From Synergistaceae bacterium (GTDB lineage Bacteria; Synergistota; Synergistia; Synergistales; Aminobacteriaceae): a stretch of 43,551 nt of DNA. Positions 1 through 43,551 of the stretch are shown in pieces. The stretch's first letter is position 1; the number at the start of each line of letters is the position of its first letter. The stretch is taken from assembly GCA_018436595.1 (NCBI GenBank), contig JAHDLC010000032.1, positions 1 to 43,551 of the forward strand, written 5' to 3'. The notes beneath the pieces are model-generated. The model saw only the letters and a program-made list of their open reading frames with translations, was not told where the DNA came from and ran no database searches. A program made the position numbers and the translations under genes.

Positions 1-575
1 TCGAGGGCCGTGGTGGGCTCGTCGGCGATGAGCAGCTCCGGGTCCAGGGAGAGGGCCATGGCGATCATCACCCGCTGCCTCATTCCTCCGCTCAGAAGAT
101 GAGGGTAGGAATCCACCCGCTTTTCCGGCCCCGGAATGCCCACTTTTGCCAGCATCTCGACGGCCCTGTCCCGGGCTTCCCTTCGTGACATCGCCCCGTG
201 GGCCAGGATGCCCTCCACGATCTGGTCTCCCACCGTGTACACGGGGTTCAGGGACGTCATGGGTTCCTGGAAGATCATGGAGATGTCCTTTCCCCGGATG
301 TTCATCATCTCTTCGTTGGTCAGCTCCGCCAGGTTTCTGCCCTTGAACGCGATGCTGCCTCGGCAGATCTTCCCGTGGGGGCGGGGCACAAGGCCCATCA
401 CCGCCAGGGAGGTCATGGATTTGCCGCTCCCCGACTCCCCCACAAGCCCGAGGGTTTCTCCCTTCGCTATGGAGAGGCTCACGCCGTCCACCGGGAAAAT
501 GTGCCCTGAAGCCGAAGGAAAACTGACCCTGAGATCCCGTATTTCAAGGAGGGGTGTATTTGTTTTCGGCTCCAT
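1..575 (-). CDS. Peptide/nickel-type ABC transporter ATPase, OppD/DppD family (partial)
   Basis: ATP-hydrolysing subunit of a peptide-type ABC importer; acts on the cytoplasmic face of the two permeases encoded just upstream. Translating the minus strand from the ATG at 573-575 gives about 191 residues before the window edge cuts the gene, so the C-terminal part is missing. All core ABC motifs except the H-loop are visible in order: Walker [10 protein letters not shown]-loop FQEP, signature LSGGMRQR and Walker B LLIADEP followed by the D-loop. The start is supported by a G-rich ribosome binding site inside the end of the upstream permease gene, whose stop codon lies 3 bases before this ATG. 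The pairing with a DppB/DppC pair and a family 5 binding protein makes the OppD/DppD class clear; the substrate is not shown by sequence. Confidence 0.93.
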
Positions 576-578
576 GGC

Positions 579-1418
579 TCACACCCCCTCGATGTCCCGC
601 CGGAAGTGCGGGTCAAGACGGTCTCGGAGAACATCTCCCACAAGGTTGAAGGAAAGGACGGTCAGGACGATGCAGGCCCCCGGGAAAACAAGGAGCCACG
701 GTGCCCTCGTGAGGTACATCCGTCCCTCGCTGAGCATATTGCCCCAGCTCGGGATGGACGGCGGAATGCCGAGACCGAGAAAGTCCAGGGCCGCCATGTC
801 CAGGAGGGAAAAGGCGAAGGTGAACGTGGCCTGGACAATGAGGGGGGACATCATGTTGGGCAGAATATGCTTCAGGATGATCCATTTCTGCTTCACCCCC
901 GAAGCAACGGCGGCTTCGATATACGGCTCCTCCCGGAGCTTCAGGGTCAGGCCGTAGACGATACGGGTGGTCCGGGTGAGATAAGTGGCCCCCACGGCGA
1001 TGATCACGTTCCCCATGCCCCGCCCGAGGATGGAAACGAGCACCAGGGCAAGAAGCAGCGGAGGAAAGGCCATGAGGACATCGATGAGTCGCATCAGGTA
1101 CGGCTCTATCTTTCTGAAGTACCCCGACGATACGCCGATGAGCACGCCGATGGAAAGTGAAAAAAGAATGACCCCGGCGGATCCGGCCAGGCTGGTCCGG
1201 GCTCCGAAAACTACCCGGCTGAAGATGTCCCTCCCGAAATTGTCGGTCCCGAAATAGTAGGTTCCGTCAGGGGAGCGGAGCTTGTCCACGGGGTTCATCT
1301 CCTGGGGATCGAAGGTGGCGATGTAGGGGGCAAGCAGGGCCGAAACGACCAGCACCCCTATGATGAGGAGCCCGGCGAGGGCGATTTTTCTCCTGTAAAA
1401 GGCCGAAAGAAATTTCAT
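579..1418 (-). CDS. Peptide-type ABC transporter permease, DppC/OppC family
   Basis: Inner-membrane permease subunit, 279 residues, normal for DppC. It has the family's N-terminal membrane segment (about residues 13-34), then the region around the FGTDNFGRDIFSR motif (about 57-69) typical of DppC/OppC, and further membrane segments to the C terminus, including the EAA-type loop near EAAVASGVKQ. The start ATG has an AGGAGGGG site 6 bases upstream and lies 12 bases after the dppB stop, so it is translated from the same message. It forms the heterodimeric channel with the DppB-like subunit. Substrate may be a di/oligopeptide or, given the operon's amidohydrolase and SelA-like enzyme, an N-acylated or amino sugar-acid compound; the latter is inference. 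Confidence 0.93.
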   Translation of the reverse strand: MKFLSAFYRRKIALAGLLIIGVLVVSALLAPYIATFDPQEMNPVDKLRSPDGTYYFGTDNFGRDIFSRVVFGARTSLAGSAGVILFSLSIGVLIGVSSGYFRKIEPYLMRLIDVLMAFPPLLLALVLVSILGRGMGNVIIAVGATYLTRTTRIVYGLTLKLREEPYIEAAVASGVKQKWIILKHILPNMMSPLIVQATFTFAFSLLDMAALDFLGLGIPPSIPSWGNMLSEGRMYLTRAPWLLVFPGACIVLTVLSFNLVGDVLRDRLDPHFRRDIEGV

Positions 1419-1430
1419 GGTCCGCCCCTC

Positions 1431-2378
1431 CTAGCTGTACCGGATCCGCGGATCCAGAAGAGCAAAGGACAGGTCCACCAGGAGATTGATCACCATGTAC
1501 AGAAAAGCGATGATGAGAATGATTCCCTGGATGGTGGGATAGTCCCTTCTCAGAACCGATTCCACCACGAGCCGCCCGATCCCCGGAAGGGAGAAGACCG
1601 TTTCGGTCACTACGGTTCCCGCCATGAGGGCCACGAACGTAAACCCAAGGGCGGATACGACGGAGATGAGCGAATTCCGGAAGATATGCCGTATATTGAC
1701 GGCTCCCTCGGACAATCCTTTTGCCCGGGCAGTCTTCACGTAATCCGCCTTGGCCACGTCCAGCATGCTCGACCGCGTCAGGCGGATGATGAGGGCCGAA
1801 TTGGGAGCGGCCAGGGTGATGCAGGGAAGAACCAGATAGCGGAGGTTCGACCAGTCCCCCGATTCCAGGATGGAAGGGAACCCTGAGGTGGGAAGCCACC
1901 GCAGCATCACCGAGAAAAGAAGCATCAGGTTCAGCCCGAGCCAGAAGGTGGGCACCGACGCGAAGAGCATGGAAAGACCGGAAAAAAGCTGGTCGATCCG
2001 GCTGTTGTACCGGACGGCCGAAAGGATTCCTATGGGCACCCCAACGAGAATGATGAGCAGCATGGAAAAGACGGCAATAAGGACGCTTGTTTCAGCCCGG
2101 TCGAGGATGACGTGGAGCACAGGCTGGTGGAAAAATATGGATGTGCCGAAATCTCCCTTCACCACTCCAGAGAGCCAGCGGCCGTATTGCACATACAGCG
2201 GACGGTCGAGCCCCATGGCTTCGCGGAGCCCCTGGACCTGTTCCGGCGTCGCCTGGTCTCCCAGCATGATCTGGGCGGGATCTCCCGGAATCAGGTGGAT
2301 GAATGAAAACACGATGATCGAAGCGAGAAGGAGAGACGGAATCATGCTCCAGATTCGCCTGAGGATATATGAAAACAC
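1431..2378 (-). CDS. Peptide-type ABC transporter permease, DppB/OppB family
   Basis: Inner-membrane permease subunit, 315 residues from the GTG chosen here, as expected for DppB. A longer open frame extends upstream but its extra residues are not membrane-like and run into the binding-protein gene; the GTG at 2376-2378 is preceded by a GGGGGAG site and gives the usual DppB beginning, VFSYILRRIW, then the first membrane helix and the HLIPGDPAQIMLG motif that marks this family. Later helices and the EAA-type loop (DYVKTARAKGLSE) follow. It is separated from the binding-protein gene by 62 bases that hold a perfect stem-loop, and from dppC by 12 bases. Confidence 0.92.
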   Translation of the reverse strand: MFSYILRRIWSMIPSLLLASIIVFSFIHLIPGDPAQIMLGDQATPEQVQGLREAMGLDRPLYVQYGRWLSGVVKGDFGTSIFFHQPVLHVILDRAETSVLIAVFSMLLIILVGVPIGILSAVRYNSRIDQLFSGLSMLFASVPTFWLGLNLMLLFSVMLRWLPTSGFPSILESGDWSNLRYLVLPCITLAAPNSALIIRLTRSSMLDVAKADYVKTARAKGLSEGAVNIRHIFRNSLISVVSALGFTFVALMAGTVVTETVFSLPGIGRLVVESVLRRDYPTIQGIILIIAFLYMVINLLVDLSFALLDPRIRYS

Positions 2379-2407
2379 GGAGGCTCCCCCCTTTCGGCGG
2401 ATATAGA

Positions 2408-2429
2408 GGGGAGGGGAAGGCCCCTCCCC
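2408..2429. promoter_or_regulatory. Intercistronic stem-loop between binding-protein and permease genes
   Basis: GGGGAGGGG (2408-2416), loop AAGG, CCCCTCCCC (2421-2429): a perfect 9-bp G/C stem between the stop of the binding-protein gene and the GTG of dppB. No U tract follows on the minus strand, so it is more likely a 3' mRNA stabiliser or partial terminator that lets the binding protein be made in excess over the membrane parts. A similar arrangement occurs in the TRAP operon of this window. Confidence 0.6.
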
Positions 2430-2440
2430 CGGAGTTTCAG

Positions 2441-3994
2441 CTACTTGCCAAACGAAACGCCCCAGAATTTGGGCCAGATGAGGGACGATTCGGAGAGTCC
2501 ATGAACCTTCGGGCTGTAGATGTCGTAGGTGAAATGATCTCCCGTCTTCATCACGGGAACCTCTTCGTAGACAAGAGCCTGGATCCTGTCCCAGACTTCC
2601 CTCCGCTTCGCTTCGTCGAGGGTGCCGGCAAACTCGGCGGCAAGGGCTCTCTTTGTCTCCGTGATCCACCACCCCGGGTAGGACTCGCTCATGAAGGTGA
2701 AGAGGATGGGATCGGGAACGAATCCGTGATGGGTGAAGAAAATATCCCACTGGGTGGGGTCTCCCCTCTTCGAGATCAGGGTCGCCCAGTCGTAAATCTG
2801 GTGGTCGATGTTGAAGCCTGCCGCCTGGAGCTGCTTCACGATCACGAGGGTGCTGTCGTAATGGAACTTGTAGGACGTGGAGGCCATGAGGGTAATCTTC
2901 TCGCCGTTGTACCCCGCCTCTTTAGCCAGATTTTTGGTGAGTTCGGGATTGTTGGCGCTGAACCTGTCGAGCCCGGCCTTCGAATACCAGAGCGTGCTCT
3001 CGGGCATGAAGGAGCCGGAAGCCTTCCACAGTTCCGCAGGACCGATGGCCGACTGGAGCACCGGCTCCATGTTCACCGCCGCCTGGAGGGCCTGGCGGAG
3101 CTTGAAATTATCCTTGAGCACTCCCTCTCTCGAGTTGAAGAACATGAGCCCCTGGTTTGCTCCCTGGTTGACGGTGGTGACCACCGAAGGATCTTCCTTC
3201 AGTGAGTCGAAGAGGTCGCCCAGGATCTGCTCGGCATAATCGTAATCCCCTGCCTTGACGCCGTTCACCCGCGTTCCCACGTCGGGGACGGGAATGAAGC
3301 GGATTTCGTCAAAGAGGGCTTCCCGCCTGCCGGCATAGCCGTCGGCGGCCTCGGTCCTCGCGGCATAGTCTTCGTTGCGGACCAGCTTGATGTAGCGACC
3401 CGGGTTCCTCTCGGCAAATTTGTAGGGCCCCGTTCCGATGTACTGCTCGGGGGTGATCGGCGTTTTCTCGGCACCGGACGCCACATCCTTCGGGTAGATC
3501 ACGGGACCGCCGTTCATGAAGGCCAGGAGGTTCTTCCACGGAGCGAAGGGAGCCTTGAAGGTGAGAGTCACCTCAAACTTGCCCGTGGCCTCCACTTTTT
3601 CCAGGTTGCTGAAGAGCACGGGACCGCGGGCGCCGAACTTGCCCCAGCGCTCCAGAGAGGCGAGCACGTCTCCGGCATCCATCTCCTTGCCGTTATGGAA
3701 CTTCACGCCCTCACGGAGCGAGAGAACGGCTGTTTTTCCATCGTCCTTCATTTCTTCGGATTTCACCAGGAGCGGAACGGGACTGTACTTGGAATCGAAA
3801 GTATAGAGCCCCTCGAAAATATGCTGGGCGATCATGGTGGTCAGGTCGGAAGTCACCACGTGCTGGTCGAGGGTGGGAGGTTCGTCGATGACGGCGACAC
3901 GGAGGACCCCGCCCTTTTCCGCAGCGAATGCCGCTCCGGCGGCGATGACAAGGAAACACAGGCTCCACAACAGGATAGTTCTCGTCCGATTCAT
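2441..3994 (-). CDS. ABC transporter substrate-binding protein, family 5 (DppA/OppA type)
   Basis: Exported solute receptor that delivers substrate to the DppBC-like permease. 517 residues, normal for the SBP_bac_5 family. It opens with a charged n-region, a hydrophobic core and an AFAAEKGG cleavage region (signal peptide of about 25 residues), followed by the family pattern LRVAVIDEPPTLDQH, an HIFEGLYTFD block and a GTGPYKF block near residue 200. An upstream in-frame GTG at 4003 overlaps the ribosome binding site, so the ATG at 3992-3994, 8 bases after AGGAG, is the better start. It is the last enzyme-side neighbour of the amidohydrolase gene (100 bases upstream) and the first transporter gene. 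Confidence 0.92.
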   Translation of the reverse strand: MNRTRTILLWSLCFLVIAAGAAFAAEKGGVLRVAVIDEPPTLDQHVVTSDLTTMIAQHIFEGLYTFDSKYSPVPLLVKSEEMKDDGKTAVLSLREGVKFHNGKEMDAGDVLASLERWGKFGARGPVLFSNLEKVEATGKFEVTLTFKAPFAPWKNLLAFMNGGPVIYPKDVASGAEKTPITPEQYIGTGPYKFAERNPGRYIKLVRNEDYAARTEAADGYAGRREALFDEIRFIPVPDVGTRVNGVKAGDYDYAEQILGDLFDSLKEDPSVVTTVNQGANQGLMFFNSREGVLKDNFKLRQALQAAVNMEPVLQSAIGPAELWKASGSFMPESTLWYSKAGLDRFSANNPELTKNLAKEAGYNGEKITLMASTSYKFHYDSTLVIVKQLQAAGFNIDHQIYDWATLISKRGDPTQWDIFFTHHGFVPDPILFTFMSESYPGWWITETKRALAAEFAGTLDEAKRREVWDRIQALVYEEVPVMKTGDHFTYDIYSPKVHGLSESSLIWPKFWGVSFGK

Positions 3995-4094
3995 ATCAAT
4001 CACTCCTTTTCAGATCTCTCAATCGAATTGCGCCCCAAATACTTTCAACATCCCTTTTGCCCGTACCACCCCCTCCCCCGCTGCCGGAAAAAAC

Positions 4095-5357
4095 TCAACG
4101 CTCCGGAGGAATAAAAAACTCGCCTTCCCGAATGCCTTCACCGAAGGGGATCTCGCCGTATGCCGTCCCGTCCCGGGCGTTGAGGTCCCAGACCACTTCC
4201 CCTGCGAGGATCGTCATTTCGCACTCGAACCTGCGGTGAGCCCGAAGGCGCCCCCCGACGGAATCCTTGAAGCCGAAGGTCCCCTCCCGGAGGTTCCAGA
4301 GCGTCACGTCTCCCGGCGCTCCGGGCGAAAGGTGCCCCAGCTCCGGATGGCCGATCATCCGTGCCGGAACCGCCGTTGACCTGGCGATGACATCGCTGAG
4401 AGGCATCCCCATGGCGAGACACTTGGACATGGTGGTGGGCATGTCCATCATGGCGCCGTTCATGCTCTGGACGTGAAGGTCCGAGGAGACGGAATCGGGA
4501 TAGAACCCCTGGGCGAAGGCAGGCACGGCGTTCCGGAAGAGGAAGCTTCCCCCGCCGTGGCCCAGGTCGAACAGGACACCTCTTTCCCTGGCTTCGAAGA
4601 GGTATGGGTACACCTTCCCGTTTCCGTCCACCACGGGAACGGGCCCCCTGTAGCAGTGGGTGCTGATGTCGCCCTTCCTGAGCTTTTCCGTCACAAGCCG
4701 CCAGTAGGGACGTTCCTTCATAAAATAGCCGAAATCCACCATCACGGGCAGTCCCGACAGTTCCCCGGCCTCCACGGCCCGGTCCACCGACTCCCACCCC
4801 GGGTGCCAGTAATGGGCGCTTTTGATGCCCACGATGACATCCCGGTGCTTTTCAGCCTTTGCCGCCGTCGTCTCCGGATCGAAGTCGGGGGCGTGCTGCT
4901 CGATGATGTCGCTCACCATCCCGAAACTCGCGATATTCAGGAAAGAGAACACCCGGGTCTTCGCCCGGTCGATCACCGATACGCGAAACAGGTCGAAGTT
5001 CCGCCACCCGGCGCTCCCGGCGTCCACCATGGTGGTCACGCCGCTCCGGAAGCTGAATCCGTCGGGAAAAACACTGTACTCTCCCGCCCATGCGTTGGGG
5101 TTTCCCGCCGTGGCGAACAGGTGGCTGTGGATGTCGACAACCCCGGGAGTGACGATCAGTCCCTCCGCGTCAATCACCTTCGATGCGCCGCACCATGGAA
5201 GGGCCTTTCCCCTTCCGGCGACCACGCCGCCGGACAGGGCGAGGTCGCAGACTTCGTCCACTCCGTTCGCGGGGTCAATAACCCTGCCGCCCCTGATGAT
5301 CACGCTTCCCTCGGGGGGAAGAAAAAAATCCTTTTCCGGTATCTCTTCCACTCTCAT
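4095..5357 (-). CDS. Amidohydrolase/deacetylase family metallohydrolase (COG3964 type)
   Basis: Zinc-type hydrolase of the amidohydrolase superfamily, 420 residues, cytoplasmic (no signal peptide). Visible metal-ligand candidates are the HSH pair at residues 77 and 79 in GVVDIHSH, a bridging Lys at about 179 (VGIKSAH), His 234 (STHCYRG), His 267 (LGHGGGS) and Asp 293 (SSDLH). The block that in many COG3964 proteins reads MVHIG is MVDFG here (Asp 208), which I take as a subgroup feature. Family members are often misnamed dihydroorotase; some hydrolyse acyl esters or amides of alpha-hydroxy or amino acids, and physiological substrates are mostly unknown. It lies 6 bases after the SelA-like gene, an association seen in other bacteria (the EF_0837/EF_0838 type pairing). 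The start ATG is 12 bases after GGAGGG, slightly long. Confidence 0.85.
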   Translation of the reverse strand: MRVEEIPEKDFFLPPEGSVIIRGGRVIDPANGVDEVCDLALSGGVVAGRGKALPWCGASKVIDAEGLIVTPGVVDIHSHLFATAGNPNAWAGEYSVFPDGFSFRSGVTTMVDAGSAGWRNFDLFRVSVIDRAKTRVFSFLNIASFGMVSDIIEQHAPDFDPETTAAKAEKHRDVIVGIKSAHYWHPGWESVDRAVEAGELSGLPVMVDFGYFMKERPYWRLVTEKLRKGDISTHCYRGPVPVVDGNGKVYPYLFEARERGVLFDLGHGGGSFLFRNAVPAFAQGFYPDSVSSDLHVQSMNGAMMDMPTTMSKCLAMGMPLSDVIARSTAVPARMIGHPELGHLSPGAPGDVTLWNLREGTFGFKDSVGGRLRAHRRFECEMTILAGEVVWDLNARDGTAYGEIPFGEGIREGEFFIPPER

Positions 5358-5363
5358 GGCTGT

Positions 5364-6512
5364 TCATTTCCCTCCTTTGGTCAGGAAAAGGGCCTCTATC
5401 TCCTTCATCCGCTCTCCAATGGAATCCAGCTCGGAGTCCCTCAGGGTCATGGGGTTCACGAACACCGACTCCCCGTCGGCGGCCATGGTGAATATGGACG
5501 GATCCCCCTCCCGAAGCAGCCGGAGCACCTCATCGGAACACCCCGGGACGGCGAAGCGGAAGGCCATCTGGGGAAAGGGCTGCCCCGCCTCGTTCGGATA
5601 GAGCCGCTCCACCGAAACCATGGAACTGCCGGCAAAGGCTTTCATCGCCGCCGCGATGCGGCCCTCCGCCCACTGGACGCGGGCCTCCCCGTCCATGGAG
5701 ACGTACTGCTCCACGGCTGCCAGAAGACCAACTATCTCTTCTCTGCCCACCTTGAACATCCGCCCCACGCCGTAGGTGGGGAAGGCTGTTTTTTCAACCC
5801 ACGAGAAGAAATCCTTTTTCCCAACCATGAGGCCGCTCGCCTGGGGGCCCCGCAGATCCTTGCCGCCGCTGAAAATACAGGCGTCCGCTCCCAGGCAGGT
5901 AATTCTCCAGAGGTTCTCCGCCGGGGGCACCTGGGCCGCCGCATCCACGATCACGGGAATCCCGTGCCGGGAGGCGACTCGGATGGTGGCTTCGAGGGAG
6001 AGGGCTCCTTTTGCGACCCATCCTCCGGGAGGCATGAAAAAATAGAATACCGCCGCCGTATTGTCCGTGACGGCGTATTCGAGGTCGTCTTCCGTGGTGG
6101 GGAGGATCATGTTGGGGAATCCGATCTCCGTCATACGGCAGTTCAGAAGGCGGAGGGACCAGTCGTAGGGGTTGCGGTGGGCCCGGTGGACGATGATTTC
6201 ACTTTTCGCGATCTGTTCCGGGGAAAGGGAGGGGAACGGACGGCCCCATTTCCGGGCGATGGCCGAAGCTCCCGCGATGTGCAGGGCCGCGGCCGCGCCG
6301 TTCGTGACAAAAGCCGCCTCGTTTCTCGTGATGGAGGCGAGGCGTTCATGAACCTTCTGCTGCAGCTCCTTTATCACTACGTGGTTTCTCGCCGCCGACG
6401 CCATTGCCGAGAGCGTCTCCTCGCTCATGCGGGAGCCCCCCACCATGGTGTAGGTCCCCGCCGCGTTGATGACCGTCCGAACTCCGAGTTCCCTGTAAAT
6501 GTCCCGTGTCAC
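5364..6512 (-). CDS. SelA-related PLP-dependent enzyme (DgaE-like ammonia-lyase family)
   Basis: 382-residue aspartate-aminotransferase-fold enzyme of the SelA-related group. The PLP-binding Lys is recognisable at residue 218 in SGGKDLRGPQASG, and the Asp that contacts the pyridine ring at about 190 in VIVDAAAQVPP. The N terminus reads YRELGVRTVINAAGTYT, typical of the group. It is not a true selenocysteine synthase candidate: SelB, SelD and tRNA-Sec context is absent and length is shorter than SelA. A characterised relative, DgaE, removes ammonia from D-glucosaminate 6-phosphate; whether this one uses a phosphorylated substrate is unknown. The GTG start at 6512 follows an AAGGCGG site; the preceding regulator gene ends 14 bases upstream. 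Confidence 0.85.
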   Translation of the reverse strand: MTRDIYRELGVRTVINAAGTYTMVGGSRMSEETLSAMASAARNHVVIKELQQKVHERLASITRNEAAFVTNGAAAALHIAGASAIARKWGRPFPSLSPEQIAKSEIIVHRAHRNPYDWSLRLLNCRMTEIGFPNMILPTTEDDLEYAVTDNTAAVFYFFMPPGGWVAKGALSLEATIRVASRHGIPVIVDAAAQVPPAENLWRITCLGADACIFSGGKDLRGPQASGLMVGKKDFFSWVEKTAFPTYGVGRMFKVGREEIVGLLAAVEQYVSMDGEARVQWAEGRIAAAMKAFAGSSMVSVERLYPNEAGQPFPQMAFRFAVPGCSDEVLRLLREGDPSIFTMAADGESVFVNPMTLRDSELDSIGERMKEIEALFLTKGGK

Positions 6513-6526
6513 TGCGCATCGCCGCC

Positions 6527-7180
6527 TTATTTTGAAGGTTGAATTTCTGAATGGACCTCGTCAAGATAGGAGTAGAGCGTAAACTTGGAAATATCGAGAA
6601 ACTGGCAGATCCGGTTTCCCGACTTGGTGATGAGGAAAGCGCCTTTCTGGTCGAGGTATTTCACCACCCTGATCTTGTCGTCCCTGGTCATGTAGGAAAC
6701 AGGTTTGCCCACTTCTTCCATGGCTTTCTTCAGCAGGGCGTCAAGAAGCTGGTTCACGTCGTTGACGAAGAATTCCTCTTCCTTCTCCCCCTCGCCGTTG
6801 GAAATGAGGGACCGGATGGTCTTGTCGGCGACCATGAGGTTCGAGACGTCGAAGTTTACGCACAGGCACCCGATGACCTTTCCTTCGCCGTCGCGGATAT
6901 ACACGGACGATGAACGGAGTACCCTCCCGTCCCGGGTGTTGGTAAAATAACCGTACTTGTCCCCGTTGCGCACGGTACCGCGGAGTACTTCCAGACCGAG
7001 GTTGCTTCCGCAGTCGCCCACGCGCCGGTCTGTGACGTGGCCGTTCTCGATCATGACCACGGTGCTTTCGTAGCTGTCGGTGAGATCATGGAGAACCACT
7101 TCGCAGTTCGTGCCGAAGATAGCGGTGAGTCCTTTCATGAGGGACTCGAAAAAGGCGAATTCTTCCTGGACTTGTTTCAA
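6527..7180 (-). CDS. YheO-like PAS/HTH transcriptional regulator (DauR family)
   Basis: DNA-binding regulator, 217 residues. The N-terminal two-thirds is a YheO-like PAS domain (about residues 10-115, with LMKGLTAIFGTNCEVVLHDL and the IGCLCVNFDVS strand), and the C-terminal part is a helix-turn-helix (about 160-215, DDKIRVVKYLDQKGAFLITK). The start is taken as the TTG at 7178-7180, 8 bases after GGAGG; a TTG 15 bases upstream lies within that site. It is the first gene of the catabolic operon, directly behind the strong promoter at 7226-7254, so it probably controls its own operon and the divergent aldolase/dehydratase genes. The ligand is unknown. Confidence 0.88.
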   Translation of the reverse strand: MKQVQEEFAFFESLMKGLTAIFGTNCEVVLHDLTDSYESTVVMIENGHVTDRRVGDCGSNLGLEVLRGTVRNGDKYGYFTNTRDGRVLRSSSVYIRDGEGKVIGCLCVNFDVSNLMVADKTIRSLISNGEGEKEEEFFVNDVNQLLDALLKKAMEEVGKPVSYMTRDDKIRVVKYLDQKGAFLITKSGNRICQFLDISKFTLYSYLDEVHSEIQPSK

Positions 7181-7209
7181 AAGGAACGCCTCCAAAAAAA
7201 TATTTAGTT

Positions 7210-7241
7210 TGTCTGAATTTATGTTATTATACTGTCTGAAT
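7210..7241. promoter_or_regulatory. Paired operator-like direct repeats
   Basis: TGTCTGAAT occurs at 7210-7218 and again at 7233-7241, a spacing of 23 bp or about two helical turns, in an otherwise AT-rich 96-bp divergent intergenic region. One copy fills the spacer between the -35 and -10 of the leftward promoter and the other lies just downstream of the -10, which is classic repressor placement. The protein that binds is inferred to be the YheO-like regulator or a GntR protein. Confidence 0.5.
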
Positions 7242-7254
7242 ACTCTAACGTCAA
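7226..7254 (-). promoter_or_regulatory. Strong sigma70-type promoter for the leftward operon
   Basis: On the minus strand TTGACG (7254-7249) and TATAAT (7231-7226) are separated by exactly 17 bp, matching the housekeeping consensus at 11 of 12 positions. Predicted transcription start is near 7219, about 40 bases before the TTG of the regulator gene. No equally good promoter is visible for the rightward aldolase gene. Confidence 0.75.
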
Positions 7255-7276
7255 TAAATCAAGGAGTGAGCACATC

Positions 7277-7933
7277 ATGAACATCCGCAAATATGAAGTT
7301 CTGAGCCGTATTCATGACCTCGGCGTCGTCGGCATTATCCGGACGCCGGACACGGCGGGCGGCATCGCCTCCGCCGAGGCGGTGTTCCAGGGAGGAATCA
7401 CCGTCCTCGAAGTTTCCACCACCTTCCCGGGAGCCCTTGACATCATGAGGAGCACCGCCGCCTCCCACAAGAGCAGCGGCCTCATCCTGGGCGCCGGAAC
7501 GGTGGCCGATTCGGAGACGGCAAAGCTCTGCATCGATGCCGGGGCCGAGTTCATCGTCTCCCACTGTTTCAGCGAGGAAGTGGCGAGGCTGTGCAACCGC
7601 TACGGCGTTGCCTACATGCCCGGCGTGGGCACGGTGACCGAAATCGTCCGGGCCATGGAATGGGGAGCGGACGTGGTGAAGGCCTTTCCCGGAGAAGTTC
7701 TCGGCCCCAAATTCATCAAGGCGGTCCACGGGCCTCTCCCGAACGCCCAGATCATGCCCATCGGAGGCGTCAGCCCGAACAACCTGGAAGACTGGTTCCT
7801 CGCGGGGGCTTTCGCCGTCGGCCTGGGAAGCGCCCTCGTCAAGCCGGAAGGCCGGGAGGGGGACTACCCCGCCATCCGGCAGACGGCCGAAGAGATCGTC
7901 TCCCGCATAGCCCGGATCCGCACCCACGTGTAA
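7277..7933 (+). CDS. KDPG/KDPGal-type aldolase (Eda/DgoA family)
   Basis: Class I aldolase of 218 residues that cleaves 2-keto-3-deoxy sugar acids (usually the 6-phosphates) to pyruvate and an aldehyde. The Schiff-base Lys is residue 135 in DVVKAFPGE, the catalytic Glu is residue 45 in VLEVSTTFPGA, and the phosphate-loop region IGGVSPNN and GLGSALV follow. AAGGAG precedes the ATG. It is followed after 5 bases by a DgoD-like dehydratase, so KDPGal-type activity (DgoA) fits, but no 2-keto-3-deoxygalactonate kinase is present in the window; the enzyme might act on an unphosphorylated product, or the kinase is elsewhere. The divergent SelA-like enzyme leaves a DgaF-like role open. Confidence 0.88.
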   Translation: MNIRKYEVLSRIHDLGVVGIIRTPDTAGGIASAEAVFQGGITVLEVSTTFPGALDIMRSTAASHKSSGLILGAGTVADSETAKLCIDAGAEFIVSHCFSEEVARLCNRYGVAYMPGVGTVTEIVRAMEWGADVVKAFPGEVLGPKFIKAVHGPLPNAQIMPIGGVSPNNLEDWFLAGAFAVGLGSALVKPEGREGDYPAIRQTAEEIVSRIARIRTHV

Positions 7934-37494: not shown

Positions 37495-37731
37495 AAGGGG
37501 CAGGCGAACATTGATCAAGGAAATCACCGGCAGCCCACCTGTAACAGCGCGCAGGCGGTTCCGTGCGGTGTATAATTTCAAAAGTTGTGATCGACATCTG
37601 GTGTACCTGCCGCCGCCGGACAGAAAAGACCGGCTGCCGAAAAACCATCCTGTCCGGTTCATGTTCCGGGGACCGGAGGCGTGCCGGTGGAAATGGAAAA
37701 AGAAAATAAGCCGCTAACGAGGAGAGATACC

Positions 37732-38850
37732 ATGAAAATAGTGATCGTGGCTGCATGTGCACTCCTGGCCTTCGGAGCGTTTTCGTTTTTCCCCCGGACC
37801 GCAAACGCAGCGGAACCTTCTGTTTCTGTCGATTACGAATACGGCGATCTGAAAGAGGTGATCGTCGGCCTGCCCTACGGCATGTCGCCGTCGCTGGAAG
37901 CGAAATGGTTTGCCGACGCGCTGAAAGTCCTGCCGGATGATGAAGCGGAATACGCCCGGAAGACAGCGGGAATGCTCTGGACGGAGATGATCAATCCCGA
38001 CACGGGAAAGAGCGAAACGCAGATGCTGGAAGAGGAAAACCAGGCGTTCATCGCGATCCTGCAGTCCCTGGGCGTCACAGTGTACCGCCCGGCGGAGATC
38101 ACCGTCGATTTCATCAAAAAACATTACGGCGCGGATGTACTGCTCAACGGCTTCAGCCAGGACTTTCCCCGCGACAACATGGCCGTCATCGGCAACAGCG
38201 TCATCGAGTTCAATCTGCGGACGCCGATCCGCAAGGTGGACATCTCCGGATTCCGGGATATTCTGACCGAAAAATGCTCCGACCCGGCAGTCAGGTGGTT
38301 CTCCATGCCCCACACCGAGCTCCTCGAACCCGCCCGCGCCGATGCGCCCTTGCTGGAGGGCGGCGACGTCATCGTGCTGGGCAGAACCGTCCTGGTCGGC
38401 AATACGGAAAACCCCAGCGTGGGATCCAACGAAGCTGGCTGCAGGTGGCTCAAAAACATCCTGGGCGATGACTATACGGTGAAACGCGTCCGGCTTGTGG
38501 AAAGCGTGCTGCACCTGGACTGCGTGCTGTCCGTGCCCCGCAGCGGGCTCGCCATCATCTGCGAAGAAGCCTTTCTTGACGGTCTGCCCGAAGAGATCAA
38601 GGACTGGGACCTGATCAGAGTGAGCCTGGATGATGTCAAGCGGCTGGCCGTCAACGGCCTTCCAGTCAATTCCCAACACTACGTTCTGTCCTATAACCTG
38701 CACAACGACAACCGCTACATCCAGACCGAGCTCGAAAAGCGGGGCATCACAGTCCACCGCGTGTTTTTCGGAACCCACAACGGCCAGGGAGGATCGCTGC
38801 GCTGCGCCACCCAGCCTCTGAAACGGGAGGTCAGGACGACGAAACCTTAA
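37732..38850 (+). CDS. Exported amidinotransferase/deiminase-family protein
   Basis: 372 residues from the ATG at 37732 (GAGGAGA upstream). The fold is that of amidinotransferases and arginine deiminases: first block YEYGDLKEVIVGLPYG, then FPRDNMAVIG, the LLEGGDVIVLGRTVLVG block, catalytic His in ESVLHLDCVLS and the catalytic Cys near the C terminus in GGSLRCATQPL. Unusually, it carries a signal peptide (about 1-27, VIVAACALLAFGAFSFFPRTANAAE), so it would act outside the cytoplasm. The substrate could be a guanidino compound or peptidyl-arginine; unclear. It lies at the edge of the AT-rich island but its own composition matches the rest of the chromosome. Confidence 0.82.
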   Translation: MKIVIVAACALLAFGAFSFFPRTANAAEPSVSVDYEYGDLKEVIVGLPYGMSPSLEAKWFADALKVLPDDEAEYARKTAGMLWTEMINPDTGKSETQMLEEENQAFIAILQSLGVTVYRPAEITVDFIKKHYGADVLLNGFSQDFPRDNMAVIGNSVIEFNLRTPIRKVDISGFRDILTEKCSDPAVRWFSMPHTELLEPARADAPLLEGGDVIVLGRTVLVGNTENPSVGSNEAGCRWLKNILGDDYTVKRVRLVESVLHLDCVLSVPRSGLAIICEEAFLDGLPEEIKDWDLIRVSLDDVKRLAVNGLPVNSQHYVLSYNLHNDNRYIQTELEKRGITVHRVFFGTHNGQGGSLRCATQPLKREVRTTKP

Positions 38851-38937: not shown

Positions 38938-39064
38938 CAGGTATCTTCGGGAAGCCGTGGCCTATTGCGGGAAAGTGGATGTCCCTTGACACCCGTAGCA
39001 TTCAAAAAACTTGGCATGAAGGACAGAAATATAACACTATGAATAAGCGTTTGTCCTATTTTGC

Positions 39065-40828
39065 TTATTCGACTTGTCTACTTTGTAAGCGCCATCGCTT
39101 ACCCACTTCAGATAAATGCTGATCCGTGATTGTATCAGACTGCCACCCCTTATCAAAATCAATATCCTGAGAGCGTGGAAGTGATTTCCCTTCTTTGACC
39201 AAATCCCGTATAAGGATTCGTGAGGGAATAATTGCCGCTTGTCCGACAAAAATTGCTTCTCGACGCCGAAGGCCTGAGAGAACTTTTGTCAACCCTGCAA
39301 GAGAATCAGGCAACACACTCTGTACATGCCTTCGGTCAGAATCGTTCGTAATGCGCAAGACTATCCAAGAATTGCATTGAGATAATACCGTTGCTTCCAC
39401 TTCGCTTGGACGTTGGGAAACAAGCATCAATCCAATACCATATTTGCGTCCTTCTTTAGCAAGTCTTTTAATCGCATCCTGTGCAGCTTCATATTGCGCT
39501 TCACCACGGTCTGGTACATAACGATGTGCTTCCTCGCAAACAAGCAGTACTGGGTTTTTCTCGCGTTCTTCCCGCGTCTGCCAGAGTTTTAAGGAAAACA
39601 GAGTCCTTGCAATCGCGGAACTTGCCGCACCTGCAACTTCGTTTGGGACACCTGATAAATCAACGATTCGAATAGATGGCCCTTCACCAACAAACTGCTT
39701 AACAATGCTAGGTAATAAGTCGGTAACACCGTCCCAATCCTTCATCATGAACATTTTACGACTGTCTCGGCATAACGATTCGACTTTTCGGATTACTTTT
39801 GTGTAACCCTCATGCTTCTTTTTGTCCGTACCTTCAGGTCGAAGAGAGTTTACAGCACCAACAAAACCAATTTCATTATCTCTTGCCCCGTCCTTGTTTC
39901 CAAGTTCGTCCAGGTCGTATGGATCACCAATGGAATATGGAATAGGGGAATCAACTGTAATGCAATTAACGTCTATGCCAAGTTTCTTTGCACCTTGCTG
40001 TCGAGCTATCCAGAGTGCATTCATTACAATATTCGTCTGTGAAGTCGCGGTTTCAGCTTTTCCAACAAATAGGGCAACCGTCTCTTCCAAGTTCAGAAGC
40101 CAATACGGAAGCAAAAGGGAATTTTCGTCGGTACATAATCTGATATGCTCCGGAAATGCTGTGCTGTATTCATTGTGGGGATCGAGAACAACAATTTGAG
40201 GATGCCACTTAGAATGATTTGCATTCTTTCCTCGATCAAGAATGGAGTGTAGTACGGCAGCAACTGTTCCCGATTTCCCAGCACCGGTTGATCCCAATAT
40301 CGCTGTGTGTTTACCAAGAAGATCATTCATTTCTGCGTAGCAAGGTGTTCCACCGGAACCGACATGCTCACCTAGAAGAATTGTCGAGCCACTTCCCTCT
40401 CCATAAATGAATCCCAAATCGGAGCGAGGAGTAAGGTAAACCTTCTGTTGCGGCAAAGGGAAGGTAGTAACCCCACGTTCAAAGTTTAGTTTCCACTCTC
40501 CTTTGCCGCATATCCATTCGCCCTCACCAAATAAATCAGCCTCTACAACACGTGCGGTTCCATCCGATTCTGGAGCAAGCCCTTTTTCGCGCTCGAACTC
40601 CGATTTCATGCGAAGCCTACCAACATAACCAAATATTATTCGTACACCAAAGTGTATCTTAATAATCGAACCAAATTGACCTATAGGGTATATTATGCCA
40701 CCAAAAACTCGAGTAAGTTCGGTAATCTTCGGGTCGAGCTCAGCAACTATATGCGTTCCATCTACTTCAATAACAGCCCCGACTTCCAGATTTGGAATCG
40801 GTTCGTTGGGGTTCTTCCTGCCACTCAT
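39065..40828 (-). CDS. HerA-type hexameric ATPase/DNA translocase of a SIR2-HerA defence pair
   Basis: 587 residues. An N-terminal beta-barrel (HAS-type, about 10-130) is followed by the RecA-like core with Walker A GSTGAGKS at 179-186 and Walker B LLVCEEAH at 428-435; VSQRPSEV near 470 and the C-terminal segment match HerA/FtsK-type motors. In archaea HerA works with NurA in end resection; here no NurA-like gene is present and the partner is SIR2-like. Its start overlaps the SIR2 stop by 4 bases (ATGA). The size fits HerA proteins of described SIR2-HerA antiphage systems. Composition is AT-rich compared with the chromosome. Confidence 0.88.
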   Translation of the reverse strand: MSGRKNPNEPIPNLEVGAVIEVDGTHIVAELDPKITELTRVFGGIIYPIGQFGSIIKIHFGVRIIFGYVGRLRMKSEFEREKGLAPESDGTARVVEADLFGEGEWICGKGEWKLNFERGVTTFPLPQQKVYLTPRSDLGFIYGEGSGSTILLGEHVGSGGTPCYAEMNDLLGKHTAILGSTGAGKSGTVAAVLHSILDRGKNANHSKWHPQIVVLDPHNEYSTAFPEHIRLCTDENSLLLPYWLLNLEETVALFVGKAETATSQTNIVMNALWIARQQGAKKLGIDVNCITVDSPIPYSIGDPYDLDELGNKDGARDNEIGFVGAVNSLRPEGTDKKKHEGYTKVIRKVESLCRDSRKMFMMKDWDGVTDLLPSIVKQFVGEGPSIRIVDLSGVPNEVAGAASSAIARTLFSLKLWQTREEREKNPVLLVCEEAHRYVPDRGEAQYEAAQDAIKRLAKEGRKYGIGLMLVSQRPSEVEATVLSQCNSWIVLRITNDSDRRHVQSVLPDSLAGLTKVLSGLRRREAIFVGQAAIIPSRILIRDLVKEGKSLPRSQDIDFDKGWQSDTITDQHLSEVGKRWRLQSRQVE

Positions 40829-41961
40829 TGTTCACCTCCTAGCAAACGCGTAAGAATTTCAAACTTCCACCACTCCAAAACATCAGTATCTCGCTCATAT
40901 TTCTTGTTTCCATGGAAGAAGCCCTTGTTCGCATATACCCGGATTTGCGAACTAATAGAGTCATCTTCTAGCCATTTAAGAAGTCTGCCCTCAGGTTCGT
41001 TCGTTCCAATAAAAGCCGCGATAGTCAGTCTCCCCTCAGATTGATACAAGGCGTTTTCGATTTCCGAGTCAATATGTGAATCTCCGAAGCTATATCCACA
41101 TATTGCAAGCACCATTTCACTTCCTTCACTCGGGCAGAGGCTTTGACGCATGAAGTGCAACATTTGCGCGAATGGATCACGTTGAGTTTCCTGATACTTC
41201 GTGGCGGCGGGGTATATTAGAACATGATTCATTCCGGATTCAGTCCTGATACCGGAACGAATCCGTCTTGGCAGGGAATCTTTCATTAGACACCAATCAA
41301 TTGAACCGTGGATCTTGAAGACACGGGCCATCTTTTCGTTAGTTCTGAAAGTGTTTGGCTCCCACCAACCTGTCGCTGAACCATTAAAACCATCGCAATA
41401 GACCACTTGTTCAAGTCCAAGCGCATCTTCAATCAACGTGTCGTAATTGAGAACAAAGTAATCTACCCCCCTACCAGACTTGCCCGCCTGCAAAGATCCG
41501 TGTATAGCCCTGACAAATTGTTGATGTGTTGCAATGTCGACCTCTTGATCACCAATTACTGCAGAAATGGCGGTTTTTATATCATTGAGTGCAATTTGCA
41601 GTTCATTTGCCTCTCTCTCCTGATCTCCGATTGAAACCTTGGAATGATCAGCTCCGCGCAGTGTTCGTCTTTCCGCGATAGAAAGAAAATCGACAATCTC
41701 ACTCATATAATCTTCAATGGTTGCTCGAGTAGCGCCTGAGAATAATTTCTGAACATTACTAAGGAGGTTTTGGGTCTCCCTGCAAATTTTCTTGTGACCA
41801 AAGACTTTTTCCGTAAGGTCTGGCATTAAAGGGAGTCCAGCGATTTTGCTACATCCAGCACCAAGCAAAAATGCAAGTCTACTCTGAGACATCAAATCTC
41901 GCATGTCTTGAACGATGTTTTTGAGTTCTGGTGATGAAAAAACTGACAAATCTTCACTCAT
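40825..41961 (-). CDS. SIR2-like NADase-family protein of a SIR2-HerA defence pair
   Basis: 378 residues with a SIR2-like domain over most of the length: glycine loop LLGAGCSK (32-39), Asn 172 in LNYDTLIED and His 218 in KIHGSIDW, the residues that position NAD and carry out hydrolysis. A C-terminal block (AICGYSFGDSHIDSEIENAL) is typical of phage-defence SIR2 proteins. In known SIR2-HerA systems the two proteins form a large complex that depletes NAD or cuts nucleic acid on infection. AGGAG precedes the ATG. The 4-base overlap with herA indicates strict co-expression. No sign of frameshift or lost key residue. Confidence 0.85.
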   Translation of the reverse strand: MSEDLSVFSSPELKNIVQDMRDLMSQSRLAFLLGAGCSKIAGLPLMPDLTEKVFGHKKICRETQNLLSNVQKLFSGATRATIEDYMSEIVDFLSIAERRTLRGADHSKVSIGDQEREANELQIALNDIKTAISAVIGDQEVDIATHQQFVRAIHGSLQAGKSGRGVDYFVLNYDTLIEDALGLEQVVYCDGFNGSATGWWEPNTFRTNEKMARVFKIHGSIDWCLMKDSLPRRIRSGIRTESGMNHVLIYPAATKYQETQRDPFAQMLHFMRQSLCPSEGSEMVLAICGYSFGDSHIDSEIENALYQSEGRLTIAAFIGTNEPEGRLLKWLEDDSISSQIRVYANKGFFHGNKKYERDTDVLEWWKFEILTRLLGGEQ

Positions 41962-42357
41962 TTGGTTCTCCTATTCTTAAACCAAACTTAAAACTAATCG
42001 GAGGAGCATGGTGTTATCCGCTTAATGCAAGTGTTAGAATGCACACTTAAACCTGTCCACTTCCAAGCTCTGAAGGAGCATGGATACTGCGGTCATTTTT
42101 CCTCCTGAATCCTTCTTCATGGTACTTTTCGTCCGCGGTCTTGCCTCTGAGACTCCCTTGCCTTAAGAAAACATGACGAACAGCAAAATGATTAAGCTTG
42201 TCACTTCCTCACAAGTTCGCTCGTAAGACACGTTCTCAGGGTGCGGAAGCCTCCAAATTATTAGTCGTCAGACAATTGCAAGTTTTTTAACGATCGCATT
42301 AATCGGAGAGCAAAAGGAGTATAAAGCGGTGCTTTAGGAAGCCTTCGTTGAACCCAA
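41962..42357. other. 396-bp intergenic region in the island
   Basis: AT-rich and without a supported gene. It should contain the promoter of the SIR2-HerA operon. Seen: an inverted repeat AAGTGT (42029-42034)/ACACTT (42043-42048), and two copies of GGAGCATGG (42003-42011 and 42073-42081). A minus-strand open stretch ending at about 42045 (reading KTADEKYHEEGFRRKNDRS) has no start codon or ribosome binding site and may be a gene remnant; unrecognised. Confidence 0.4.
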
Positions 42358-42528
42358 TCATGGTTTCTTGGGCGGTGGACTCGGAAAGTCAACAGGTTTC
42401 GCTTCACTTGCCGTTGATTGATAATTGTTCGTCACACTTTCTCCCGCCTGATTATTTGGCTTAGGTATGGGCTGGTAACCTTTTTTTAATGGCTGGTAAC
42501 CTTCCTCTATTTTTTTCTTGTCAGTCAT
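42358..42528 (-). CDS. 56-residue protein with YQP repeats, unknown function
   Basis: Small gene found by direct translation. The ATG at 42526-42528 follows AAGGAGG by 5 bases, an excellent site. The protein starts MTDKKKIEEGYQPLKK, repeats the GYQP unit (GYQPLKK, GYQPIPK) and ends in a Pro-rich tail (FPSPPPKKP). It is probably disordered. It overlaps the end of the membrane-protein gene by 8 bases, so the two are coupled. No family known to me. Confidence 0.7.
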   Translation of the reverse strand: MTDKKKIEEGYQPLKKGYQPIPKPNNQAGESVTNNYQSTASEAKPVDFPSPPPKKP

Positions 42529-43129
42529 GATTGCCTCCTTGTTCTATGGTGAAGAGTTCAATGGAAATAATCTCCGGGGTCAATATAATGATTCCCGCTG
42601 TATCATTTCTCTTTCTTTCAAATCCACCATCATTATTTACAACCCAGGCCTCTTCAAGATATAGTTGCTCAGGAGCAGGTGCACTTGATGCAAAAGATGA
42701 ACTATCGTAAAGACCTGCGATCTGTTTGCCATCTTTTAGCGTAACAATAACCCAATATGGCTTTCGTTGGCTAAATACGTAATCCCATGGCTTTCCTGTT
42801 GGGTGAGGCATTATCGATTGGAAGCATTGAGTTGTACGCAATTTCTTAAAAACCAATACCCACGCGACCGGGGCTATCAAAAATACAATTACATAGAAAA
42901 GAATGTAAAAATTTGGGAATTTGGTTTTTACCTGATGTATTTCCACCACAGAGATAGGCCAAAACAGCAGAGCGTAGTTGACACAACTGTACGCAATTGC
43001 GTCGATTAGTTGTTTTGTTGATTCCTTCGGGGTCGACGCAAGGAGGAGTTCATAAGTCTTCAGGCTAACAAAACCTGGAATTACAAACGCAATAAATAAG
43101 AACATTTTATCGGTTCCCCAAATATCCAT
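42521..43129 (-). CDS. DUF6338-like membrane protein
   Basis: 202 residues from the ATG at 43127-43129, which has GGAGG 5 bases upstream (an earlier TTG overlaps that site). Three membrane segments (about 9-28, 45-66, 76-97), then a cytoplasmic domain with YWVIVTLKDGKQIAGLYDSSS, PEQLYLEEAWVV and TAGIIILTPEIISIELF, a pattern I associate with the DUF6338 family. Function unknown. AT-rich like its neighbours. It may be the membrane part of the island or an independent passenger. Confidence 0.7.
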   Translation of the reverse strand: MDIWGTDKMFLFIAFVIPGFVSLKTYELLLASTPKESTKQLIDAIAYSCVNYALLFWPISVVEIHQVKTKFPNFYILFYVIVFLIAPVAWVLVFKKLRTTQCFQSIMPHPTGKPWDYVFSQRKPYWVIVTLKDGKQIAGLYDSSSFASSAPAPEQLYLEEAWVVNNDGGFERKRNDTAGIIILTPEIISIELFTIEQGGNHD

Positions 43130-43194
43130 TATTGCCTCCAAATAAATACAAAAAAGATAAATATATAAATTTAGTTTATTTATTAAAAATTTCT

Positions 43195-43344
43195 ACCCAT
43201 AACACAACTGGAAAACACGGCGAAACTGAGCCACCCGCGCGGAGTGTTAGAGCCACCGGCGCGCCGGCACGGAGCCGGTCAGAGCGAACTCCTGTAAGAT
43301 CGAATTACCGTCGGAAGACGGAATTTATCTCAGGAGGTATTCAA
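43195..43344. mobile_element. Left end of an IS21-family element
   Basis: The GC content rises sharply here. GAGCCACC-type repeats at 43228-43235 and 43250-43257 (22 bp apart, each followed by a CGCG-rich stretch) resemble the multiple terminal repeats of IS21 elements. The exact end and target duplication are not determinable because the other end is outside the window. Confidence 0.55.
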
Positions 43345-43551
43345 TTGTCAGATTTTCTCACCATTGTCCGGGCCGTTTACAGCGGCCTGAGTCAGCGCAA
43401 GGTCGCCGCTACGCACGGGGTGTCCAGAAACACGGTGTCGCTGTATCTGCGTAAGGCGCGGGATCAAGGCTGGCTCACCCTGAAAGACCTGGACGCATTG
43501 GACGACACCGCCGTGACGCAAGGCTTGCTGCAAATCACCGCCCCGTCCCGA
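43345..43551 (+). CDS. istA: IS21-family transposase IstA, N-terminal part (partial)
   Basis: Starts at a TTG 7 bases after AGGAGG and reads through the window edge for 69 residues. It begins with a helix-turn-helix: LSQRKVAATHGVSRNTVSLY is the typical IstA N-terminal DNA-binding segment. IstA is the DDE transposase; the catalytic core and the IstB helper would lie outside the window. Confidence 0.75.
   Translation, partial: MSDFLTIVRAVYSGLSQRKVAATHGVSRNTVSLYLRKARDQGWLTLKDLDALDDTAVTQGLLQITAPSR

Follow-up and report, generated by a model that had tools for sequence, protein, structure and literature searches.

The window analyzed here, a stretch of 43,551 nucleotides that makes up the entire contig C43 in a draft genome of 3.2 Mb, very probably carries near its right end a complete, horizontally acquired two-gene SIR2-HerA (Nezha-type) antiphage system, as judged from sequence, predicted folds, and analogy with studied systems. 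The pair is an ordinary SIR2-HerA system, of a kind that is already known.

Organization and family assignment of the gene pair

Both open reading frames lie on the minus strand. The SIR2-like NADase gene (positions 40825 to 41961) encodes 378 amino acids, and the gene for a HerA-like hexameric-type ATPase (positions 39065 to 40828) encodes 587. The stop codon of the former and the start codon of the latter overlap by 4 bases in the sequence ATGA (positions 40825 to 40828, minus strand). Shine-Dalgarno-like motifs could be read from the sequence 5′ of each gene on the same strand: AGGAG for SIR2 (positions 41968 to 41972) and AGGAGGTGA for HerA (positions 40832 to 40840). A sequence-only reading had already described the two overlapping frames with intact active-site motifs, and its coordinates and residue numbers proved correct. 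In the SIR2 protein, the GAG loop begins at residue 34, Asn172 lies within LNYD, and His218 lies within KIHGS; in HerA, residue 179 opens the Walker A motif GSTGAGKS, and the EEAH that closes Walker B is at residue 432. Asn172 and His218 are invariant among eight aligned homologues, and both align with the corresponding residues of PsSIR2. Likewise, G179, K185, S186, E432, and E433 of HerA are invariant in its homologue alignment.

HerA matches the PADLOC profile PDLC04105 over 564 of 576 profile positions (E value, 1e-128) and SIR2 matches PDLC04088 over 378 of 390 (E value, 3.9e-78). Since these matches are nearly full length at such E values, chance does not account for them, and the ATPase, which had been called HerA-like from its motifs, falls inside the defense-associated HerA family. 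In keeping with a HerA/FtsK-type ATPase, Pfam assigns it to DUF87, the HerA central domain (PF01935; E value, 1.8e-27), and assigns the partner to SIR2_2 (E value, 1.9e-11). Scores against the NCBIfam equivalogs SIR2_antiphage (NF042942; 45.6 bits against a cutoff of 500) and HerA_antiphage_2 (NF042944; 273.3 bits against a cutoff of 850) stay far under the cutoffs, and the pair is therefore outside those narrower subfamilies.

The best PDB sequence matches of both proteins are subunits of solved SIR2/HerA complexes. A profile built from the SIR2 homologue alignment matched 8w9l (E value, 1e-52), 8yhx (5.3e-29), and 8j4u (8.9e-23), and the corresponding HerA profile matched 8wiv and 8wld (2.1e-154). 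As a single sequence, SIR2 matched 8w9l with an E value of 3.8e-17 and is distant from the studied members. AlphaFold2 monomer models were of moderate confidence (mean pLDDT, 69.8 for SIR2 and 73.5 for HerA), with poorly modeled SIR2 segments at residues 191 to 207 and 226 to 261, which flank the catalytic His. The earlier reading had proposed a comparison with characterized pairs by structure prediction; the SIR2/HerA antiphage complex 8wld was the top Foldseek match of both models, with E values of 3.0e-15 (SIR2) and 2.6e-41 (HerA) and a probability of 1.00 each. After the SIR2-HerA entries, the matches of the SIR2 model include the defense sirtuins ThsA and DSR2, which are NADases.

Linkage of SIR2 and HerA in related loci

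If the two genes form one system, they should be linked in homologous loci, and in each of the 21 loci where a SIR2 relative could be tested in this way, HerA directly follows SIR2. Fourteen of these, the window included, have HerA directly next to SIR2 (L001, L017 to L022, L024, L025, and L053 to L057). Counted with them are L023, whose contig stops 73 residues into HerA, L059, in which HerA is broken off after about 90 residues by a transposon, and the plasmid loci L060 to L064, in which the next gene is annotated as a HerA-like or ATP-binding protein. L058 and L065 were left out because their records end, and other plasmid matches were also left out. L059 is the conjugative plasmid pS22302 of Shewanella baltica (positions 1 to 7423), on which the SIR2-HerA pair directly follows type I restriction genes and the truncated HerA adjoins a Tn3-family transposase gene.

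In several other SIR2-HerA loci, a small KTSC-domain gene (PF13619) lies immediately 3′ of HerA (L018:8225-8515, L019:5480-5701, L061:5448-5660, L062:5372-5593, and L063:5521-5730). KTSC has been mentioned together with HerA and a nuclease in place of SIR2 (PMC9503650). As a third gene of the present system it was rejected, as none was found in the whole genome that contains the window. A gene for a DUF6338 protein with a hydrophobic N-terminal part lies upstream of SIR2 on the minus strand (positions 42521 to 43141; 206 amino acids with a TTG start, the first ATG being at 43129), separated from it by a stretch of about 560 bp in which no clear gene lies (positions 41962 to 42520). DUF6338 is absent from related SIR2-HerA loci and was rejected as a third component; we regard it as a passenger in the AT-rich island that holds the pair.

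Homologues and horizontal acquisition

The closest homologues with complete copies share 75 to 79% (SIR2) and 79 to 84% (HerA) amino acid identity and come from planctomycete, Peptococcaceae, and desulfobacterial genomes, under the record names Thermogutta sp., Phycisphaerales, Peptococcaceae bacterium CEB3, and Desulfosudis oleivorans; three of these four records are metagenome assembled, which makes the host names less certain. The other sampled genomes of the window's genus (four species) gave no SIR2-HerA match, and the best identities within the family were at most 37% for SIR2 and 47% for HerA. Across the phylum, 11 of 188 genomes contain a SIR2 relative (E value, ≤1e-10). No close relatives of the pair were matched among IMG/VR viral contigs, and phage records yielded just three matches, all weak. 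Approximate dN/dS values were 0.05 to 0.12 in comparisons with three SIR2 homologues and one HerA homologue, dS being saturated in three further comparisons. These low ratios argue for a selected function and are consistent with selection during the transfers.

Composition, absence from the sampled genus-mates, and nearest homologues in other phyla together support acquisition of the pair by horizontal transfer. The sequence-only reading had also counted the neighboring IS21 element as evidence of transfer; that part of its argument is not supported, for reasons that lie in the structure of the island.

The AT-rich island and the IS21-family element

The change in composition that had been noted beside the pair is confirmed: at about position 39000 the GC content drops from about 60% to 43 to 45% across the region, and the AT-rich island (positions 38992 to 43208) has 43% GC compared with 60.5% elsewhere on the contig. 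The window has no tRNA gene that could serve as an integration site, and no RNA families were found between positions 38800 and 43551. Three genomes of sister species (G001, G003, and G004) match the window past a 389-amino-acid open reading frame at positions 37681 to 38850. In G001 and G004 the common sequence reaches about position 38991, ending with a relic repeat, TGTCAAGGGACATCCACTTTCCCGC (positions 38967 to 38991, minus strand), beyond which the sequences diverge; the G003 contig stops short of the border. At the island site, G001 carries genes for type I restriction methylase and specificity proteins together with RadC and an AAA ATPase. The sequence that bounds the site on its far side in G001 has its match at the end of C10, a further contig of the window's genome. 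This chromosomal site is variable.

The border repeat, of the form TGTCAAGGGACA(T/C)CCA...CCCGCAATAG, resembles a relic insertion sequence end. It also occurs at several other sites in sister species (L013:1571, L014:462, and L016:4890), and its unit is doubled in places. A separate sister-genome segment, L013:13784-14165, matches the contigs of the window's genome at more than 100 scattered places, each time over a short length, and is a dispersed short repeat family.

The element at the right end of the window is indeed of the IS21 family, as had been supposed. The window holds its first 343 bases, comprising the left end and the start of an IstA-type gene (positions 43209 to 43551, plus strand), and the contig ends within it. 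L051, a full-length copy from a sister species, encodes an IstA-type protein with an rve/Mu-type C-terminal domain, followed by IstB (IstB_IS21; E value, 5.3e-53); with TG...CA termini and target duplications of 5 to 8 bp, this gene order assigns the element to IS21. The left-end sequence TGGAAAACACGG at position 43209 is common to four copies, and two of the sister-species copies have target duplications of 5 and 8 bp. The end of C10 holds the right part of the same element (istB and the terminus), and the only IS21 right end that a pattern search found in the genome is at C10:142478. The flanks at the window and C10 ends agree in a 5-bp duplication, ACAAC; the probability of such a match by chance alone is about 1 in 1000, and synteny lends further support.

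On C10, about 310 bp of 35% GC lie between the IS21 end and the sequence resembling G001. The simplest reading is that the island is a single unit of about 4.5 kb (positions 38992 to 43208 plus the 310 bp) with a secondary IS21 inside it, the join being putative. Because its two ends carry the ACAAC duplication within AT-rich sequence, the IS21 element was rejected as the vehicle of acquisition and is best read as a separate, later insertion inside the island.

Predicted function and alternative explanations

Studied SIR2 and HerA proteins assemble in a 12:6 ratio, and the complex depletes NAD+ and blocks phage (PMC11559045; PMC12198126). In Vibrio cholerae, the SIR2 mutations N168A and H227A, at the equivalent Asn and His, abolish immunity, and loss of herA weakens it, with more phage plaquing (PMC11559045). 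The activation signal of SIR2-HerA has been described as unclear (PMC12198126). From these systems we infer that the present pair forms a complex, depletes NAD+, and confers phage resistance. In the preferred account, the pair arrived by horizontal transfer within the island of about 4.5 kb, and IS21 inserted there later. SIR2 and HerA would most likely be cotranslated, and a HerA hexamer would most likely dock on SIR2 rings to give a large complex. Upon phage infection, the SIR2 subunits would hydrolyze NAD+ and phage replication would be stopped, with HerA contributing ATPase/translocase activity and keeping SIR2 in its active state.

That HerA is a housekeeping DNA repair protein beside an unrelated gene is extremely improbable. 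The archaeal HerA of DNA end resection belongs to the same superfamily, and the NCBIfam helicase_HerA model does match the window protein (E value, 1.5e-34), but the defense HerA profiles outscore it by far, and neither the patchy spread in the phylum nor the constant pairing with SIR2 fits such a role. It is also unlikely, though less so, that the pair is intact in sequence and yet silent or inactive in its host, in which case the island would carry it as a passenger. Such a fate would be in keeping with the IS21 insertion in the same island and with the transposon-cut HerA of the related Shewanella plasmid pair. However, both frames are open and have ribosome-binding sites, homologues are under purifying selection, and the IS21 element lies about 1.2 kb upstream of SIR2, beyond the DUF6338 gene, leaving the region upstream of SIR2 uninterrupted. 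From its intact motifs and this purifying selection, the pair is probably active.

What that activity would be has also been seen differently: modification of a macromolecule has been proposed from genomic context for HerA-linked sirtuins, because nuclease and sirtuin interchange (PMC9503650), and the sirtuin might, instead of depleting NAD+, ADP-ribosylate phage DNA, for example, while HerA translocates. We consider this very unlikely, since SIR2-HerA (Nezha) of V. cholerae causes NAD+ depletion and depends on the same two active-site residues (Asn and His; PMC11559045), the nearest solved structures are SIR2-HerA complexes, and NADases are among the further fold matches. NAD+ depletion remains the preferred reading. 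It is likewise very unlikely that this clade, about 20 to 30% identical to the solved members and carried between phyla, senses a different phage trigger or uses an extra partner such as DUF6338.

Relation to known systems

The best match in both sequence and fold is PsSIR2-HerA (8w9l, 8wiv, and 8wld), which has the same two families with the catalytic Asn and His aligned. In fold alignments with the 8wld chains, identity is about 21% for SIR2 and about 29% for HerA, and the window SIR2 has GAGCS where PsSIR2 has AAGCP. The Escherichia coli SIR2-HerA/Nezha (8j4u, 8su9, and 8uae) is the same pair, recovered by both the SIR2 and the HerA profile, and has been solved as a SIR2 dodecamer with a HerA hexamer. 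It is more distant (17 to 21% identity in fold alignments), and the window pair scores under the NCBIfam equivalog cutoffs. The HerA of HerA-DUF4297 (8xau, 9c1m, and 8ziq) is closely related (profile E value to 9c1m, 1.3e-108), but the effector there is a DUF4297 protein instead of SIR2. On pS22302 of S. baltica, a SIR2 with 45% identity is followed by the start of HerA, as in the window, whose HerA is full length in contrast to the plasmid copy.

The window adds a complete, uninterrupted SIR2-HerA pair from a bacterial lineage remote from those in which such pairs have been studied, and it is a documented case of transfer between phyla, with 75 to 84% protein identity. It leaves the picture of the family unchanged, and the divergent clade to which it belongs could help locate the residues that recognize the SIR2-HerA trigger.
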